Origin: an uncultured Prevotellaceae bacterium
Lineage (GTDB): Bacteria > Bacteroidota > Bacteroidia > Bacteroidales > Bacteroidaceae
NCBI GenBank assembly: GCA_947169245.1
Contig: CAMVPA010000004.1
Location: forward strand, 1 to 64,000
Direction of reading: 5' to 3'
DNA length: 64,000 nt
The notes below the pieces were generated by a model. The model had not been told where the DNA came from, made no database searches, and was given only the letters and a program-made list of their open reading frames with translations. Positions 53,920-64,000 of this stretch are shown here, one piece after another (positions within the stretch are counted from its first letter, which is position 1; each line of letters starts with the position of its first letter). The translations under genes were made by a program, and so were the position numbers.

Positions 53920-54001
53920 GCGCCTGTGGCGGAATTGGTAGACGCGCTAGACTTAGGATCTAGTTTCTTCCGAAGTGCAGGTTCGAGTCCTGTCAGGCGC
54001 A
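53920..54001 (+). tRNA. tRNA-Leu (anticodon TAG)
   Basis: GCGCCTG/CAGGCGC acceptor, GGCGGAATTGGTAGACGC D-arm, CTAGA-CTTAGGA-TCTAG anticodon arm, GGTTCGAGTCC T-arm. Confidence 0.95.
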
Positions 54002-54010
54002 CAAAGACAA

Positions 54011-54084
54011 GTCGGCATAGCTCAGCTGGTTAGAGTATCACCTTGACATGGTGGGGGTCCTTGGTTCGAATCCAAGTGTCGACA
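54011..54084 (+). tRNA. tRNA-Val (anticodon GAC)
   Basis: GTCGGCA/TGTCGAC acceptor, TAGCTCAGCTGGTTAGAGTA, TCACC-TTGACAT-GGTGG, TTGGTTCGAATCCAA. Confidence 0.93.
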
Positions 54085-54088
54085 CAAA

Positions 54089-54120
54089 GAAAAGCGAAGT
54101 CCTCGGACTTCGCTTTTTCG
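54089..54120 (+). terminator. Terminator after tRNA pair
   Basis: AAAGCGAAGTCCTCGGACTTCGCTTTTTCG. Confidence 0.85.
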
Positions 54121-54613: not shown

Positions 54614-54761
54614 AACAATTACAGTTTAGGTGGGCACTATACCCGCTGCAAAGTTACAAAAAACTCGTTAACCAGCAAGCGTTTTTCAGAACATTAACGT
54701 ATCGCCGCATGGAAAGTTGAAGAAAATTGTGTATCTTTGCAGCCAAAAGAATGACTACGTC

Positions 54762-55520
54762 ATGAAAAGGACTACATTGCTACTAACAGGACTGCTGATG
54801 GCCATTGCCATGCAGGCCGCTACCGCAACTGATACTATTACTGTACGCATCAAAGGCATGCGCTGTGAGGAATGTGCACACAAAGTGAACACAGTGCTGC
54901 ACAAGTTGAATGGCGTGAAAAGCATTGACTACAACTTGGAACGACGCACGGCAACCATTGCCTACGACAAGGTACTGACGTGTCGCGACACCATCGAGGC
55001 ACGGCTGGCTGCCACCGGCCGCTACAAGGCATCGGCCTATAGTAAGGACGAGGTGATACGCCGTGGCATGGGACTGCAGATGAGCGACATGCACTGTCAG
55101 AAGTGTGCCGACCGCATCACGAAACGACTGGAGCAGATAGAGGGCGTCGACAGTCTTGCACCAAAGGTGGACAAGCAATACGTCTTCGTGCGCTACGACG
55201 CCAACCGTACCAACAAGGACATCATCCGCCAGGCACTGGCAGACCTGGGCTTTACCCCAGTGAACTACTACACGAGCACGGACATCAGCTTTGCCTACTT
55301 CCTGATTCCAAAGGAGGCGGCCAACGACGAGACCATTGATACAGTCCTTGCGCTGGACGGTGTCGACGATGCCAACGTCAACGCGAAACGCGGATCGCTG
55401 GCCATCACCTACATCAACACCGAGACAAGCACGGAGAAGCTGCAGGAACAGCTGAAGGCCGAAGGCATCGATGCTACCCTGCCGCCTGCCCACGAGTGTA
55501 AGGAAGAGAAACAACAGTAA
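54762..55520 (+). CDS. Secreted multi-HMA (heavy-metal-associated) domain protein
   Basis: Signal peptide, then GMRCEECAHKVNTVLHKLNGVKSIDYN and DMHCQKCADRITKRLEQIEGVDSL; a third HMA-like fold region without CxxC; start set at 54762. Confidence 0.85.
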   Translation: MKRTTLLLTGLLMAIAMQAATATDTITVRIKGMRCEECAHKVNTVLHKLNGVKSIDYNLERRTATIAYDKVLTCRDTIEARLAATGRYKASAYSKDEVIRRGMGLQMSDMHCQKCADRITKRLEQIEGVDSLAPKVDKQYVFVRYDANRTNKDIIRQALADLGFTPVNYYTSTDISFAYFLIPKEAANDETIDTVLALDGVDDANVNAKRGSLAITYINTETSTEKLQEQLKAEGIDATLPPAHECKEEKQQ

Positions 55521-55524
55521 GCCT

Positions 55525-58230
55525 ATGCGACAACTACTACTGATACTCGCCATGGCATGCTGCACAGCAGTCTCGGCGAAGAACTACAGCATTAGCCTGA
55601 CCATTACGGAACAGGACACGCAGGAGGCTGTCGTCATGGGCAACATCAGCCTGAAGCCGGCAGGCATCCTCGCCGTCACCGACGCCGACGGCAAAGCCCT
55701 CATCCAGAACGTTCCCGAGGGCGAATACACACTGACCATCACGTATGTGGGCTATGAGACCATCAGCCGCCGAGTCAGGGTCGACCGCGACCTGACAATG
55801 AACCTGAAGATGACACCCACGTCGCTGGCCCTGAAGGAGGTGACGGTGACGGCAAAGACCCGTGAGAGCGGTGCCTCGACAAGCAGCGTCATCGGCCGAC
55901 AGGCCATTGACCACCTGCAGGCCACCTCACTGGCCGACGTCATGCAACTGATTCCCGGACAGCTCATCGACCGTCCTGACCTGACGCAGCAACAGGGTCT
56001 GCAGCTACGCACATTACAGAACAACTCGACGATGGCCTTCGGCACAAGCATCGTGGTCGACGGCATGCCGATGTCGAACAACGGCAATGTGGGCCAAGGC
56101 ACTTTCACAGGCTCGGCTTTCGCGGGCACCGACCTCAGACAGGTAAGTGCTGACAACATCGAAGAGGTGGAGGTCATACGTGGCATCCCCTCGGCCGAAT
56201 ATGGCGACCTGACCAGCGGCCTCGTCGTGGTACACTCGAAGGTTGGCGTGACGCCATGGCAGGCAAAGGCGAAAATCAATCCCGGCCTGCAGAATTACAG
56301 CTTAGGCAAGGGTCTGAGGCTGGGTAAGGGAGGTGTCGTCAATGCCAACATCGACTACGCCAAGGCATGGGGCGACCCACGACAGAAGACCCGCTCGTTC
56401 GACCGCTATACGGCCAACATGGGCTGGGGCTACGACATCAGCCGCAAGTGGCACACCGACACAAAGCTGCGTTTCATGCAGGCCAAGGACTGGACGGGTA
56501 ACGACCCTGACGCCATCCAGGACGGGACCGAGAACCGCTCTACGAACACCAACTTCGGACTGACACACAACGGCAAGCTGCAGATGGACCTGCCACTGAT
56601 GCGCTCACTGAAATACACCATTGGCCTCAGCCTGTCGAAAGCCGATACCAAGAACACGAGCTATGTTGCCGTGAGCAGCGGACTGCTGCCCATACTGACC
56701 GCTATGGAGACGGGCTACTACAGCGTGCCCTGGAAGACGACGTCGTATCTGGCAACAGGACGGACGGAGAGCCGACCGGGCAACGTCTTCCTGAAGGTGA
56801 CCGACGACTTCTTCATGCGTAAGGGCAAGACGGTGCAGAGCTTCAAACTTGGCGTAGACTACCACTACGACTGGAACAACGGCAAGGGCTACTATAACGA
56901 AATCGACACGCTGCCCTACCGTCCGAACGCCAACGGTCGTCCCCGTGCTTTCAGCGACATTCCCGGACTGCATCAGCTGTCGGTCTTCGCCGAGGACCAG
57001 TTCACGTATAATATTAATAAGGTGAACCGCCTGCGCGTGAACTTCGGTCTGCGCTTCACGTCACTGCAGCCCTTCAGCGACCTGGCCACCACGGCACTGT
57101 CGCCACGACTGAACATGGCCTTCACGGTGACGAAGTGGCTCGACCTGCGAGGAGGCATCGGCATGAACTCGAAGACGCCCGGCCTGAACCACCTCTATCC
57201 TGACAAGAAATACATCGACGACGTCGTGGGCAGTTACACGCTGAGCGATCCTGCCGCCTACTACGTACACACCGAGGTGTACGACGTGCAGCGCTCGAAG
57301 GGTCTGAAGAACGCGACGACGACAAAGGTGGAAGCGGGCATCGACATCAAACTGCCCAAGAACCGCAAGATCAGCGTGCTGGCCTATCAGGACCGTACGC
57401 CCAACGGCTTCGAGGTGGCCTCCGACTACTTCACATACACCTACAACTACTTCGGCGAGGGCAATAGGCCAGCCATCGTCAACGGACAGCCCGACTTCAC
57501 GACGGGCTACACAGAGCAGTTCACCTGCTTCGCCACGACGGGACAGCTGGAGAACACCAACAAGACCATCAACCGCGGTGTGGAGTTCGACTTCGACCTG
57601 GGCGAGATTCGTCCGCTGCGCACCACCCTCTTCTTCAGCGGTGCGTGGAACGAGACGAAGACCGACTGGAGCACGCGCATGAACAACACTGCCGTGCCCG
57701 CTTCACTGCTCAGTGGAACAAAATATGTCGGCAAGGGCATCTCGCCCGTCCGCATCGTCTACCCATCGGGACTGGACTACACGCGCCTGCGCCGGTTCAT
57801 CAACACCCTGCGCGCCGTCACCCACATACCACAGCTGAACATGGTAGCCTCGTTCACGGGACAGGTTATCTGGCATAACTCCACCTGGAGCTACACGGCC
57901 GACAAGGACCCGATAGGCTGGATTACGAGCGACCTGCAGTACCACGACATCAATTCGGCAGAGTACATCGTCTTCGATGGCGGACAGATAGCCACCAACG
58001 ACGAAAAGCTGAAGCTGCGCTACACTGACAACGAGCCGACGAAGAACCCCGTGACATGGAACCTGTCGGCACGACTGACGAAGGAATTTGACAAGATGGG
58101 CGCTTTGTCGCTCTTTGTAGACAACTGTCTCTTCTACGAGCCCTACCTGAAAGGCAATAACACCACGACGCTGTCGCAGCGCAACACAGGCAAGTTTGCC
58201 TTCGGCGCTGAACTCTCCATTAATCTGTAA
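55525..58230 (+). CDS. TonB-dependent outer membrane receptor with carboxypeptidase-regulatory-like N-term
   Basis: EAVVMGNISLKPAGILAVTDADGKALIQNVPEGEYTLTITYVGYE; plug TSSVIGRQAIDHLQATSLADVMQLIPG; start set at 55525. Confidence 0.9.
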   Translation: MRQLLLILAMACCTAVSAKNYSISLTITEQDTQEAVVMGNISLKPAGILAVTDADGKALIQNVPEGEYTLTITYVGYETISRRVRVDRDLTMNLKMTPTSLALKEVTVTAKTRESGASTSSVIGRQAIDHLQATSLADVMQLIPGQLIDRPDLTQQQGLQLRTLQNNSTMAFGTSIVVDGMPMSNNGNVGQGTFTGSAFAGTDLRQVSADNIEEVEVIRGIPSAEYGDLTSGLVVVHSKVGVTPWQAKAKINPGLQNYSLGKGLRLGKGGVVNANIDYAKAWGDPRQKTRSFDRYTANMGWGYDISRKWHTDTKLRFMQAKDWTGNDPDAIQDGTENRSTNTNFGLTHNGKLQMDLPLMRSLKYTIGLSLSKADTKNTSYVAVSSGLLPILTAMETGYYSVPWKTTSYLATGRTESRPGNVFLKVTDDFFMRKGKTVQSFKLGVDYHYDWNNGKGYYNEIDTLPYRPNANGRPRAFSDIPGLHQLSVFAEDQFTYNINKVNRLRVNFGLRFTSLQPFSDLATTALSPRLNMAFTVTKWLDLRGGIGMNSKTPGLNHLYPDKKYIDDVVGSYTLSDPAAYYVHTEVYDVQRSKGLKNATTTKVEAGIDIKLPKNRKISVLAYQDRTPNGFEVASDYFTYTYNYFGEGNRPAIVNGQPDFTTGYTEQFTCFATTGQLENTNKTINRGVEFDFDLGEIRPLRTTLFFSGAWNETKTDWSTRMNNTAVPASLLSGTKYVGKGISPVRIVYPSGLDYTRLRRFINTLRAVTHIPQLNMVASFTGQVIWHNSTWSYTADKDPIGWITSDLQYHDINSAEYIVFDGGQIATNDEKLKLRYTDNEPTKNPVTWNLSARLTKEFDKMGALSLFVDNCLFYEPYLKGNNTTTLSQRNTGKFAFGAELSINL

Positions 58231-58236
58231 AGCAAT

Positions 58237-59448
58237 ATGAAGAAGATACTATTCACCTTGGCAACACTGCTGTCGCTGGCATCGTGCATCGACTACAACG
58301 ATGCCACCACGGAAATAACGGCCCGCGTACAGCTGGCGATGCCGGCAGAGTTCGTCAACGGCACTGACCTGGCAGGCCACACCATCACGATGCAGCAGGG
58401 CAGCACGCTGCTGACGGCGACCACCGACGAGGACGGCGTGGCGACATTTGCCAATCTCATCCCCGACGTCTACGACATCAGCTGCTCGTGGGAGCTGACA
58501 GCCGACCAGTACCATGCACTGACAGGCGACGAGCAGGTGGTCAGCGGCTGCACCGTCAGCGGTTCGCTGAACAGCCACCTCATCCGTGAGGAGCAGACCA
58601 TCGAACTCGGCACAAACCTCAGCATCAACCGCGACATCATCATCGGCAAGATATACTACGCCGGCTCGAAGGACAACAACAACCGCAGCTACATGCCAGG
58701 CAAGTACATTGAGCTCTACAACCAGAGCAACAATGCCGTTGACGTCAGCGGACTATACATCGGACTCGTCGAGGCAGAGAGCACGCAAGCCTATACGCTG
58801 GAGAACCTGCACGAGGCCTTTGCCGACACGGTGGTGCTGGTGAAGCAGGTGTTCCGTATTCCTGCCGACGTACCCTTCATGGTACAGCCCGGCGCTACGG
58901 TGCTCATTGTGAACAGCGCCACGGACCACCGTAACAACAACGACATGGAGAACGACCTGAGCGATGCCGACTTTGAGGCAAAAGATGCCACTGGCAAGAC
59001 GCAGAACAACCCTGACGTGCCTGCGCTGGAGCTCATCTACACGATGTACCCCAGTGTCTCGAACATGAATCTCGTGCAGAGCGGCCCCTGCTCCGTAGTC
59101 ATCTTCCGCACCGACGACGACATAGCGACGTGGGCCACGACCTACCCCTACGGCAAAACCTCCGGCAACCAGTGGAAACTGCTGCCCAAGCGCCACATCA
59201 TTGACGGCGTGGAGGTGCTGCGCAACAAGAACACGGGCATTGACGTGAGCTCCAAGCGCCTCTACAGCGAGATAGATGCCGGCTATACGAACATCGAAGC
59301 CATCTCGGGCTACACCGGAGAGGTCGTCTACCGCCGCACCAGCGACAAACGGGGTGACGACGGCCACAAGATTCTCATCGACACCAACAACTCGAGCAAC
59401 GACTTCCAGGTCTCCAAAACGATAAAACCGCGCGAATATGACGAATAA
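58237..59448 (+). CDS. DUF4876-type lipoprotein (paralogue 1)
   Basis: MKKILFTLATLLSLASCIDYNDATTE lipobox; GKIYYAGSKDNNNRSYMPGKYIELYNQSNNAVDVSGLYIGLVE. Confidence 0.75.
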   Translation: MKKILFTLATLLSLASCIDYNDATTEITARVQLAMPAEFVNGTDLAGHTITMQQGSTLLTATTDEDGVATFANLIPDVYDISCSWELTADQYHALTGDEQVVSGCTVSGSLNSHLIREEQTIELGTNLSINRDIIIGKIYYAGSKDNNNRSYMPGKYIELYNQSNNAVDVSGLYIGLVEAESTQAYTLENLHEAFADTVVLVKQVFRIPADVPFMVQPGATVLIVNSATDHRNNNDMENDLSDADFEAKDATGKTQNNPDVPALELIYTMYPSVSNMNLVQSGPCSVVIFRTDDDIATWATTYPYGKTSGNQWKLLPKRHIIDGVEVLRNKNTGIDVSSKRLYSEIDAGYTNIEAISGYTGEVVYRRTSDKRGDDGHKILIDTNNSSNDFQVSKTIKPREYDE

Positions 59449-60979
59449 GTTCCGCACATTGGCCTTATTGGCCCTATTAGCCCCATTGGGCCTATTCGCC
59501 CCATTGGCCGCATTAGCCCAAGAAGGCAGCTACCGCCACGCCGACGCCACGCAGCTGTGGCGCCTGTCGGGCAACGCTGCCGGACTGGCGCTCGACAGCA
59601 GCGCCAACCGTGGCTATGCGCAGTTTGAACTGCAACACCGCGAGGGCGACTATCACCGTGTACAGGAGGGCGGACAGCGTAACCAGCTTCAGTTCTACAC
59701 GGAGCGCTACCAGCAGATTAACCCCCTGCTCGTGAGCTACGGCTCGTTCCGTTTCAATATGGACCACACCAAAGGCCGAGCCTGGTGTGACGTCATGCGG
59801 CCCTACAACAGCAACCCGTTCTTCTCGGGCAGCAGTGTCAGTGGCAAGTACGACACCCAGCAGTTCGACCTCACCGCCGCCGTGGGAACCCGGCAGATGT
59901 GGGGCTTCACGGGTGGTCTGCGCCTGGACTACAGCGTAGGCGACCTGAGTCGTCTGCGCGACCCGCGCTCCCGCTCTGAGCTGCTCGACTACAAGCTGGC
60001 ACCATCGCTGACCTACAGCACGGGGAGCCACACTGTGGGTATTGCCGGCCACTACAACCGCCGTAAGGAGAAGATACCCAGCATGACCACCGTCCAGCAA
60101 GACCCTGACCTGAAGTACTACCTCATGACAGGTATGGAGCAGGCCACGGGTACCACCGGCGGCTACAGCGGTTACAACCGCGAGTGGGTGGACCACCGCT
60201 TCGGTGCAGAACTGACCTACGGCTACAACAACGGCGCCTTAAAGAGCCTCAGCAGCGTCACCATAGAACGCGGCTCGGAGGACGTGCTTGGCACGTATAA
60301 GTATGAGCCGGGCCACTACATGAGCTACCGCTACGGGCTCACCTCCCACAACCGTATAGATTTGCACCAGATAGACTTCGCCGTCGGCTACGAGCAGGCC
60401 TACGCCGACGAATACCGCCAACAGCTTGTACAAGAGCGCGATGCCGAGAAAGGCTATACCAGCTACTGGTACGAGACGCTTATCACCTTCAAGAAGCGCT
60501 ACCAGGTGAAACAGCTCAACGCAGAGCTCCACTACCGCTACAACATGTACTTGCATATCGGTTGTACCCCCGACAGCTATTTCGGAATAAAAGCCGCTCT
60601 GAACCAGGCAGAAAACAAACACCTGCTGCCGACATCAAGCCTCGAGTACACTCATCTCGACCTAACCGGCGAGGGCGGCACATCGCTGCTGTTTGAACAT
60701 CTTTGGATTGACGCCAAGGCCGGCTACCACATCGCTTCGAAAGCCGACCTGCAGCTGGCCGACGCCACCACCGACTATGCCATCCAAGTGCTGCTGCCCG
60801 ACATGCAGTACTACGATGCCAACTACTGGCGCGGTCATCTCTCCCTGACCTACCAGTTCCCGCTGTCGCTGAAGGGCAAGCGCACCACCGCCTTCGTCCG
60901 TGCCTACGGCGACTACCTCAGTGCCGACCACGGCCTCAACGGCTCTACCGTCGGTCTCTCCTTCGGACTATTCAACTAA
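59438..60979 (+). CDS. DUF6850-type outer-membrane beta-barrel protein
   Basis: 513 aa, signal peptide, alternating beta-strand composition, ends SADHGLNGSTVGLSFGLFN. Confidence 0.65.
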   Translation: MTNKFRTLALLALLAPLGLFAPLAALAQEGSYRHADATQLWRLSGNAAGLALDSSANRGYAQFELQHREGDYHRVQEGGQRNQLQFYTERYQQINPLLVSYGSFRFNMDHTKGRAWCDVMRPYNSNPFFSGSSVSGKYDTQQFDLTAAVGTRQMWGFTGGLRLDYSVGDLSRLRDPRSRSELLDYKLAPSLTYSTGSHTVGIAGHYNRRKEKIPSMTTVQQDPDLKYYLMTGMEQATGTTGGYSGYNREWVDHRFGAELTYGYNNGALKSLSSVTIERGSEDVLGTYKYEPGHYMSYRYGLTSHNRIDLHQIDFAVGYEQAYADEYRQQLVQERDAEKGYTSYWYETLITFKKRYQVKQLNAELHYRYNMYLHIGCTPDSYFGIKAALNQAENKHLLPTSSLEYTHLDLTGEGGTSLLFEHLWIDAKAGYHIASKADLQLADATTDYAIQVLLPDMQYYDANYWRGHLSLTYQFPLSLKGKRTTAFVRAYGDYLSADHGLNGSTVGLSFGLFN

Positions 60980-61005
60980 ATACTAACTTATAAAAAGAAA
61001 CACTT

Positions 61006-62577
61006 ATGAGAATAACTACTCCACTGAAAGCGCTGGCCATCGCTGCCGGCCTGTTACTGACCGCTAACGCTGCAGAAGCCAAGCTTGTGAAGCCAAGCAC
61101 CTACGCCAACGATGTCGTCATCGGCAAGGTTTACTACGCTGGCGCCAAGGACAATGGCAACAAGAACTACCTCAATGGCAGATACATTGAGCTCTACAAC
61201 ATCTCGACAGACACGCTCGACATCTCAGGCATGTACATCGGTCTCGTTGAGAGCGACGCAAAGGCCAGTGCATGGACTGCAGAACGACTGACTGAAGCCC
61301 ACAAGGACTCCGTAGCACTGAAGCAGCTGTTCCGTATTCCAGCCAACGCCAAGATGGATCCCTACAGTAGCATCGTCATCGTTAACAGCGCCATCGACCA
61401 CTCGGCCAACGGCGAGAACTTCCCCAATTTGACTGACGCCGACTTCGAGGCCAAGGATGCCTCTGGCAAGACGCAGAACAACCCCGAAGTGCCTGCGCTC
61501 GAACTGGTCTACACAGCCTTCGACGCCATTTCTAACATGAATTTGGCTCAAGGCGGTGCTTGTGCCGTAGTGTTGCTGACACAGGACACCAAGACCGACG
61601 ATTTGACAAAGACCTTTGCCTACGGCAAGGAGAAGGGTTCTGTATATGTGCTGCTGCCGAAGAGCAAGGTGATCGACGGCGTGGAAATCGTCAAGATGGG
61701 TGAAGCTGAGGAAGGAATACTGCGTCTTGACAATAGCCTGGACGCCGGTAACATCGCCATCACCTCCAAGACGGGCTACAACGGTGAGGTCGTCTACCGT
61801 AAGACCGCATTCGTCGTAGGCGGCAAGGCCGCTCTCTTCGACACGAACAACTCGACCGTCGACTTCGCTGTGTCAACGACCATCCAGCCCCGCCAGTATG
61901 ACAGCGAGGCCAGCGGTCTGACGGCACAGAGCATCACCATCCCCGAAAGCGGCTATCTGGCCATCAACATTGACAAACCATTCTTCGGACCGAAGGACAT
62001 GCTCTTCTGCTTTGTCAACGCCAGCAACAACGACGCCACCACCGACCTCAAGTACACGGAGATTCCCGGCGACAGCACGCTGCTGCTGAAGGGCGACTGG
62101 ATTGCCATCGCCAAGCCCGGCACATACGACCTGCAGCTGTCGGCTTCACAGGGTGTGATGAAGAGTCGCTCGTCTATCCAGTCGTGGAGCGACGAGGACA
62201 CCAAGACCATGAAGCAGACCAACCGCCGCTACTACAAGTTCTTGAATACAACAGGTAAGGTTGGCTTCCAGCGCGTGCCTGCTACAGCCGAAGGAAACTA
62301 CAACGTGGCCGACTGTACTGACGGTAACCGTCTGATTGTCACCATCACCGATGCCATCGGCGCCCGCATCTTTGCTGCTAACGGTGCAGCAAGCTGGGAC
62401 GAACTCGAGTTCATTCCCTGGCACGGTGCAACGCCAGAGCAAGCTGCTGCCAGCGTACAGGGCATCACGGTACAGCCCATCAGCAACGGAGCCATCTACG
62501 ACCTGCAGGGTCGTCGCGTCGTTAAACCTTTGAAGGGTATTTACGTCAAAGATGGTAAGAAGATGATTATCAAATAA
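61006..62577 (+). CDS. DUF4876-type secreted protein (paralogue 2) with C-terminal sorting-type motif
   Basis: GKVYYAGAKDNGNKNYLNGRYIELYNISTDTLDISGMYIGLVES; C-term IYDLQGRRVVKPLKGIYVKDGKKMIIK. Confidence 0.78.
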   Translation: MRITTPLKALAIAAGLLLTANAAEAKLVKPSTYANDVVIGKVYYAGAKDNGNKNYLNGRYIELYNISTDTLDISGMYIGLVESDAKASAWTAERLTEAHKDSVALKQLFRIPANAKMDPYSSIVIVNSAIDHSANGENFPNLTDADFEAKDASGKTQNNPEVPALELVYTAFDAISNMNLAQGGACAVVLLTQDTKTDDLTKTFAYGKEKGSVYVLLPKSKVIDGVEIVKMGEAEEGILRLDNSLDAGNIAITSKTGYNGEVVYRKTAFVVGGKAALFDTNNSTVDFAVSTTIQPRQYDSEASGLTAQSITIPESGYLAINIDKPFFGPKDMLFCFVNASNNDATTDLKYTEIPGDSTLLLKGDWIAIAKPGTYDLQLSASQGVMKSRSSIQSWSDEDTKTMKQTNRRYYKFLNTTGKVGFQRVPATAEGNYNVADCTDGNRLIVTITDAIGARIFAANGAASWDELEFIPWHGATPEQAAASVQGITVQPISNGAIYDLQGRRVVKPLKGIYVKDGKKMIIK

Positions 62578-62583
62578 ACGAAA

Positions 62584-62982
62584 ATGAAGAAAATAATACT
62601 TGGCGGACTGGCGCTCATCGCGCTGGCCGCAACACTACAGAGTGCCCTGCCTAAGGGCGATGACATCATCACGAAGGAGGATGGCATGACCGTTGTCAAC
62701 ACCACAGAGTTGGGTAAGGATGTCGTCGGCTATGTCGCCACCACACCCCTGAAAATCTACATTCAGAAGAATAAGGTGGTGAAGGTCGAGGCACTGAAGA
62801 ATCAGGAGACGCCCAAGTACTTCGTGAAAGTGAAGAAGCAACTGCTGGACAAGTGGAATGACAAGAAGGTGAGCGAGGCCGCCAAGATGAAGGTCGACGG
62901 CGTCACCGGCGCCACGTTCTCGTCGGACGCTGTCATCAAGAACGTCCAACTGGGACTGGAATACTACCAGAAGAACAAGTAA
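62584..62982 (+). CDS. FMN-binding domain protein (NosR/RnfG-type flavinylation motif)
   Basis: 132 aa; KMKVDGVTGATFSSDAVIKNVQLGLEYYQKNK carries DGxTGATxSS. Confidence 0.8.
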   Translation: MKKIILGGLALIALAATLQSALPKGDDIITKEDGMTVVNTTELGKDVVGYVATTPLKIYIQKNKVVKVEALKNQETPKYFVKVKKQLLDKWNDKKVSEAAKMKVDGVTGATFSSDAVIKNVQLGLEYYQKNK

Positions 62983-63020
62983 TAAGAAAAGCCCTCGCGA
63001 TTGCGGGGGCTTTCTTATTA
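62981..63020 (+). terminator. Terminator after FMN-binding gene
   Basis: AATAAGAAAAGCCCTCGCGATTGCGGGGGCTTTCTTATT. Confidence 0.85.
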
Positions 63021-63034
63021 TTCACTAATTGTAT

Positions 63035-64000
63035 TTACTTTACATTTCCCACCTTGATGAGATACTCTCCGATTTGTACGGCGTTGAGGGCAGCGCCCTT
63101 ACGAATCTGGTCGCCAGAAAGCCAGAACGTCAGGCCATTCTCATCGCTCAGATCCTTACGCACACGACCCACAAAGACATCGTCCTTGCCTGCCGTCTCG
63201 AGCGGCATGGGATAGACGAGGTTGGCGGGATCGTCGACGAGCGTACAGCCGGGAGCGGCGGCAATAGCCTGCTGTGCCTCCTCGACGCTGATGGGACGCT
63301 CAGTCTCAATCCAGACACTCTCGGAATGGCTGCGCAGCGACGAGACACGTACGCACATGGCCGAGCACTTAGCGTCGGTATGCATGATTTTCTGCGTCTC
63401 GTTGAACATCTTCATCTCCTCCTTCGTGTAGCCGTTGGGCTGGAAGACGTCAATCTGGGGAATGACATTGTAAGCCAGCTGGTGGGGGAACTTCTTGACG
63501 GTCTTCACCTCGCCTGTCTCGACCATCTCCTTATACTGCTGCTGCAACTCGGCCATGGCGGCAGCACCGGCCCCCGAGGCACTCTGATAAGAGGCGACAT
63601 GGATGCGCTTGATGTGGCTCAGCTGCTCTAAGGGCTGCAGCACGACAACCATCATGATGGTCGTGCAGTTGGGATTGGCAATGATGCCGCGCGGACGGTT
63701 CAGCGCATCGGCGGCGTTGCACTCGGGAACCACCAAGGGTACGTCGGCGTCCATACGGAAAGCCGAGCTATTGTCAATCATCACGCAGCCGTACTTCGTG
63801 ATGTCGGCAGCAAACTCCCTCGACGTGCCGGCACCGGCCGATGTGAAGGCGATATCGATGTCCTTGAAATCGTCGTTATGCTGGAGCAGCTTCACTGTCA
63901 GCTCCTTTCCACGGAAGGTATACTTAGTGCCAGCCGAGCGCTCAGAGCCGAAAAGCACAAGTTCGTCCATCGGAAAATTTCTCTCATCAAGCAGGCGCAG
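63035..64000 (-). CDS. asd: Aspartate-semialdehyde dehydrogenase (5' end outside window)
   Basis: [40 protein letters not shown]; reading frame stays open past 63970 ([24 protein letters not shown]). Confidence 0.93.

Follow-up and report, generated by a model that had tools for sequence, protein, structure and literature searches.

The window analysed here, a 64,000-nucleotide stretch of DNA from an uncultured Prevotellaceae bacterium (assembly GCA_947169245.1, contig CAMVPA010000004.1, positions 1 to 64,000), carries a six-gene operon (54762-62982) that encodes, in order, an HMA protein, a TonB-dependent receptor (TBDR), a DUF4876 protein (DUF4876a), a DUF6850 protein, a second DUF4876 protein (DUF4876b) and an FMN_bind protein. 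Judged by its closest named relatives, the window belongs to a lineage of rumen Prevotella. We lean towards reading this operon as the Prevotella variant of a TBDR-DUF4876-DUF6850 outer-membrane system of iron or haem starvation, engaged in the capture of iron or haem complexes and in their reductive release. The link of the DUF4876/TBDR family to iron is well supported; for the window strain we infer a reductive step, the metal handled by the HMA protein and the mode of regulation. As far as our searches show, the core of the system is known and iron-regulated, and the HMA/FMN variant, the exchangeable gene slot and the promoter element described below are new.

A recurring trio and its variable neighbours

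The TBDR, DUF4876 and DUF6850 genes are adjacent and co-directional in the window and form a core that recurs throughout the Bacteroidota, as judged from a neighbourhood sample of 32 loci of relatives and 80 named loci (from Prevotella, Segatella, Bacteroides, Sphingobacterium, Pedobacter, Flavobacterium, Hymenobacter and others). The genes that accompany this trio vary by lineage and encode an M16 peptidase, a Met-zincin with an S46 peptidase, HEAT-repeat proteins, a CCP_MauG dihaem peroxidase, ChaN, a secreted protein of 366-391 amino acids (aa), DUF4876b or, in Prevotella, HMA and/or FMN_bind, whilst FecR lies upstream of the trio in some loci. M16 peptidases occur in 11/32 loci of relatives. 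No M16 gene is found near the window operon, and a Fus/PqqL protein-import system was rejected for the window on this ground.

Across 200 genomes of the genus, DUF6850 lies within 10 kb of 36 of the 50 HMA matches, against about 0.5 expected by position, and it is present in 45/49 genomes with HMA compared with 54/151 without it (table 45/4/54/97; Fisher 1e-12). FMN_bind is found near DUF6850 in 20/109 cases among the matches listed, including most of the closest ones, where about 0.5-0.6 would be expected. Counted by DUF6850 locus, 38/142 have HMA and 20/142 have FMN_bind. Because the trio recurs in the Bacteroidota and both HMA and FMN_bind occur near DUF6850 far above expectation, the grouping of these genes is not due to chance. 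An earlier note on this DNA, made from the sequence without database searches, had held that rare co-occurrence would count against its proposal of a metal-acquisition operon; this was not seen, the TBDR being a recurring partner and HMA and FMN_bind lineage-specific accessories. Seen as a trio that includes a barrel and has an exchangeable processing slot, these formerly scattered 'hypothetical' genes become a single system open to testing.

Iron and haem regulation and a promoter element

In the Bacteroidota, DUF4876/TBDR operons count among the genes with the strongest iron induction, and the papers found assign them no function. Under iron depletion, the PG1019-PG1022 locus of P. gingivalis is upregulated 20.8-214.5-fold, and BT3625-BT3633 and BT1933-BT1939 of B. 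thetaiotaomicron are upregulated 37-128-fold and 3.5-7.4-fold, respectively (PMC10434189). Similarly, a P. gingivalis DUF4876 gene, with a log2 fold change of -5.42, is one of the most strongly changed genes when hemin availability is compared (PMC10470040). In common with the window, each of the three loci unites one or more DUF4876 proteins with a TBDR, and the published homologues are induced by low iron or hemin, in most cases strongly. They differ in that BT3625-33 also contains genes for PepSY, ABC and fimbrillin proteins and BT1933-39 one for a HEAT-repeat protein, whereas HMA and FMN_bind, both present in the window, are not named there. The iron-induced B. thetaiotaomicron genes include BT1938, a DUF4876 protein with a solved structure (4Q1Z); the family, described earlier as uncharacterised, is thus less obscure than had been supposed, with a structure available and homologues regulated by iron or haem.

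In many DUF4876 operons, a palindrome, ATACCTA-N4-TAGGTATTG, is located exactly 40 bp upstream of the TAnnTTTG -7 box. Scored out of 16 at this fixed offset, this operator is present in 31/53 DUF4876-operon promoters but in only 11/400 other promoters of the same loci (P 1e-24, an optimistic value since the consensus was drawn from the same promoters), and several of these 11 belong to TBDRs of DUF4876 operons whose partner gene was mis-called. A genome scan, independent of that P value, recovered 73 operator sites in five Prevotella genomes compared with 9 for the reversed pattern. The operator precedes HmuY-TBDR-CobN (L281; L numbers denote loci and G numbers genomes), flavodoxin-MMPL (L279, in the window's own genome), TetR-ABC (L284), CbiX (L290), and imelysin with a dihaem oxidoreductase alongside a divergent hemerythrin-GerE gene (L277, own genome, C13:46500-57500); PepSY genes lie in the same DNA stretch as operator-preceded genes. 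The published iron stimulon includes these classes of gene, and the palindrome appears, from its distribution, to mark a probable iron-starvation regulon of Prevotella. It is not described in the papers found. The text of the 2023 iron-stimulon paper contains neither 'motif' nor 'palindrome' and calls the molecular mechanism of iron regulation unclear. The element provides a handle on how the Bacteroidota control their iron genes. Class II activator sites are centred near -41 and, with a conventional placement of the -7 box, simple arithmetic and general knowledge would put the centre of the palindrome at this position.

The hemerythrin-GerE protein (CdhR-like) whose gene is preceded by the operator is a candidate regulator. 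Few relatives with that protein were in the sample on which the phylum-wide comparison of operator and hemerythrin-GerE is based, and a related element, ATCACTAAAAGTGGGTATTG, found in some genomes without hemerythrin-GerE, argues mildly against that protein as the reader of the operator. The related element recurs in G365, G291 and G244, which belong to the same class, with its spacing to TAnnTTTG unchanged.

Amongst sister operons that begin with HMA, 8/14 possess the operator (scores 10-13/16, P ~3e-9), whereas the window promoter scores 2/16 at 54692-54711. For this reason the HMA-FMN form, judged as a class from its promoters, is part of the operator regulon, and the window copy would have lost or changed this control. 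L063 (3043-4750) encodes an HMA protein unlike that of the window, with one HMA domain and a tail rich in Cys and His. Its gene immediately precedes DUF4876-TBDR-DUF6850 and is itself preceded by the operator (13/16), probably representing an independent association of HMA with the trio. The surface capture of a metal complex proposed in the earlier note is accordingly favoured for the family, by the published transcriptomes and by an operator common to hmuY, flavodoxin and other iron genes, but receives no such support from the window promoter.

The HmuY-HmuR haem uptake system shares with the window the logic of a surface lipoprotein paired with a TBDR and, in Prevotella, the same operator (L281). 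It differs in that the window operon has neither a HmuY fold nor a CobN-like partner, and DUF4876 has no Pfam relation to HmuY.

Components of the operon and a proposed mechanism

All six open reading frames are intact and lie on the + strand, separated by 4, 6, -11 (an overlap), 26 and 6 nucleotides (nt). The six co-directional, tightly packed genes reported earlier were thus recovered in order, each with a Pfam match, and the closing terminator corresponds to a hairpin at 62988-63013, although terminator-like sites across the whole region are no more numerous than in shuffled sequences. The features are as follows.

54732..54739, +, -7 promoter box of Bacteroidota type, TATCTTTG (pattern TAnnTTTG), upstream of HMA, from sequence
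54762..55520, +, HMA protein, 252 aa, secreted (Pfam HMA, E 4.8e-32, three stretches)
55525..58230, +, TBDR, 901 aa, CarboxypepD_reg-like N-terminal domain and plug (Pfam Plug, 1.2e-13)
58237..59448, +, DUF4876a, predicted surface lipoprotein (Pfam DUF4876, 1.3e-26)
59438..60979, +, DUF6850, predicted outer-membrane beta-barrel of 18 strands (Pfam, E 1.5e-87)
61006..62577, +, DUF4876b, secreted paralogue without a lipobox (Pfam DUF4876, 3.4e-22)
62584..62982, +, FMN_bind, single domain, 132 aa, signal peptide (Pfam, E 2.8e-13)
62988..63013, +, terminator-like hairpin at the operon end, between FMN_bind and the convergent asd

The start of the TBDR at 55525 is an in-frame ATG followed by a signal peptide, the longest reading frame beginning at 55471, and siderophore-receptor models match this protein in the plug region only. 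Sequence or homology assigns the TBDR and the DUF6850 barrel to the outer membrane and predicts export of HMA and FMN_bind. The AlphaFold model of DUF6850 (pLDDT 92.9, pTM 0.87) has 18 long strands, and Foldseek returns loose matches to TBDR, FadL and AlgE barrels (TM ~0.3-0.4). DUF4876a comprises carboxypeptidase-regulatory-like, lamin-tail-like and DUF4876 regions and carries a lipobox, LASC, followed by acidic residues (CIDYND), a signal of the surface-export type. A lipobox is present in 80/98 DUF4876 relatives and acidic residues just past the cysteine in 59/98, and a comparable export signal has been demonstrated for Bacteroides surface lipoproteins (PMC6222051); on these features DUF4876a very likely sits on the cell surface. 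A SusCD system was rejected, as the lipoprotein beside the TBDR is a DUF4876 protein with a lamin-tail region and has no Pfam match to SusD.

The sole PDB sequence match of DUF4876a is 4q1z (E 7.9e-12). The same entry is the best fold match for the AlphaFold model of DUF4876b (pLDDT 84.9; E 7.7e-14), followed by lamin-tail immunoglobulin folds. 4Q1Z (BT_1938) shares 19% identity with DUF4876b and lacks its C-terminal extension, and to our knowledge has no known ligand or function. DUF4876b is exported and has an extra C-terminal domain ending in ...YDLQGRRVVKPLKGIYVKDGKKMIIK, which is sorting-signal-like. Although this C-terminus resembles Prevotella sorting tails, no NCBIfam match to the type IX sorting-domain model was obtained, and a role as cargo of the type IX secretion system was rejected on that basis. 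Both window paralogues bear the signature DTNNSxxDF (DTNNSSNDF and DTNNSTVDF), and the pattern D[TLW]N[ND]SxxD[FM] is matched by 94/98 DUF4876 relatives. The collection scan for DUF4876 used an alignment subset, the first alignment having no sufficiently conserved stretch.

The HMA protein contains the two CxxC-bearing domains noted earlier (GMRCEECAHK and DMHCQKCADR), to which a third, cysteine-free HMA domain and a C-terminal HxC are now added. It ends in PPAHECKE, where a PxHxC/HxC motif is conserved among relatives. Because relatives L084, L086, L087, L235 and L236 lack both the second CxxC and the C-terminal HxC, covariation suggests that the two form one joint metal site; in this comparison, relative L075 ends close to a contig end.

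The FMN_bind motif, DGVTGAT, fits the flavinylation motif of ApbE, D-x-x-[S/T]-G-A-[S/T] (PMC12052999), which is kept in all FMN_bind relatives examined. The genome encodes one ApbE (E 1.3e-80) with an N-terminal membrane anchor, and no second FMN_bind protein was found in this assembly, which is 75% complete. The flavinylation motif previously assigned to the small protein is therefore upheld as a sequence motif in an exported FMN_bind protein, with ApbE in the same genome. The PDB match is 8p2b. Membership of an Rnf complex was rejected, as the FMN domain alone matches and falls far under the RnfG cut-off. Flavinylation has already been linked to iron assimilation (PMC8238504) and, in common with those systems (PepSY, P19), the window combines an extracytosolic FMN_bind protein bearing the ApbE motif with metal uptake genes. 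In contrast to them, the operon lacks PepSY, P19, FTR1 and VIT1, and HMA is not mentioned in PMC8238504. Close relatives of the window FMN_bind are fused, by sequence, to NapH-like polyferredoxin membrane domains (L207-L211, L218); such a polyferredoxin is one transmembrane electron route described for flavinylated proteins (PMC8238504).

In the mechanism that we propose, DUF4876a, and secreted DUF4876b, would capture a ligand that contains iron or haem and pass it to the TBDR, which would import it with TonB energy, DUF6850 serving as an auxiliary barrel of the surface complex. The ligand would then be processed in the periplasm by the products of the variable genes, elsewhere peptidases, a dihaem peroxidase or the haem-binding ChaN. 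Here FMN_bind, to which the anchored ApbE would attach FMN (flavin mononucleotide), would supply the electrons that free the metal, and HMA, with its two CxxC motifs and C-terminal HxC, would either bind the metal so freed or protect the pathway against thiophilic metals. For capture and import the scheme draws on predicted localisation and family regulation; the ligand, the reduction and the HMA cargo we infer. Combined with a flavinylated partner, HMA suggests a reductive, metal-chaperoned branch of the DUF4876 system in rumen Prevotella.

Alternative readings and flanking genes

Several observations weigh against an iron- or haem-capturing, reductive operon. The main weakness for this particular operon is the low operator score of its promoter. 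No ligand is reported for any DUF4876 system in the papers found, and the operon has no gene for a membrane electron donor. The HMA protein exceeds the curated cut-off of NCBIfam TIGR00003, copper ion binding (84.1 bits vs 62), its domains match copper models best, and its PDB matches include HMA domains of copper ATPases; none of the HMA proteins known to us is an iron carrier. FMN_bind of the same family is present in 146/200 genus genomes, commonly beyond the operon, and in G022 (L213) adjoins asd without a DUF4876 system. Since it is common elsewhere and stands beside asd alone in G022, its placement in the operon could partly be a neighbourhood effect.

Taken further, these last observations would make FMN_bind, and perhaps HMA, a bystander, the system then being TBDR-DUF4876-DUF6850-DUF4876b and FMN_bind a general periplasmic flavin carrier lying between it and asd. 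The asd neighbourhood often hosts DUF4876 systems, and a small FMN_bind tree (12 short rows, with many minus-strand loci left out) did not separate linked from unlinked copies. We nevertheless regard this as rather unlikely, given that linked copies lie 3' of DUF6850 in several flanking contexts (L055/L103, L212, L067, L086), that 20 such copies stand against ~0.6 expected, and that in the window FMN_bind follows DUF4876b after 6 nt and shares the operon's terminator. The copper matches of HMA raise the question of copper (or zinc) acquisition or detoxification, with HMA as a CopZ-like periplasmic chaperone, the TBDR moving a copper complex and FMN_bind reducing Cu(II) to Cu(I). The missing iron-type operator and a C-terminal HxC that comes and goes with the second CxxC are in keeping with such a role. 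However, the widespread form of the trio has no HMA and responds to iron or haem, and many HMA-first operons keep the operator, including L063 with its unrelated HMA. No copper ATPase or efflux gene was found among the scanned neighbours of the window and its relatives, not every neighbour having been scanned, and neither a P-type ATPase nor a CusAB-type pump was recognised among annotated neighbours. A plain copper operon was rejected on account of the iron-responsive family, and the copper reading as a whole seems quite unlikely. Less probable again is protein scavenging at the surface, in which the trio would take up a (metallo)protein or peptide of host, plant or microbial origin and be linked to metal indirectly, because the prey is rich in iron, as in FusA/FusC. 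Elsewhere, TBDRs that import proteins have M16 partners (FusC/PqqL), and the variable slot is rich in peptidases (M16, Met-zincin with S46, besides HEAT-repeat proteins), but the window operon has no peptidase and most HMA/FMN-bearing operons are without M16.

A stronger version of the iron/haem reading sees in the HMA-FMN_bind form a separate machine on the Bacteroidota surface that acquires metal reductively, driven by flavin. It would belong to an undescribed iron-starvation regulon whose mark, the class II-like promoter element ATACCTA-N4-TAGGTATTG, is perhaps read by hemerythrin-GerE; this version further holds that the window operon has left this control and may have shifted metal. We consider it speculative and, on present evidence, unlikely.

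Beyond the operon, asd (63035-64000) adjoins it in convergent orientation and is repeatedly found next to genes of DUF4876 systems, in varied arrangements (L100, L102, L104, L106, L107, L110, L213, L223, L233). Upstream of the operon, two sequences at 53920-54090 resemble tRNAs by eye, one of Leu type and one of Val type.

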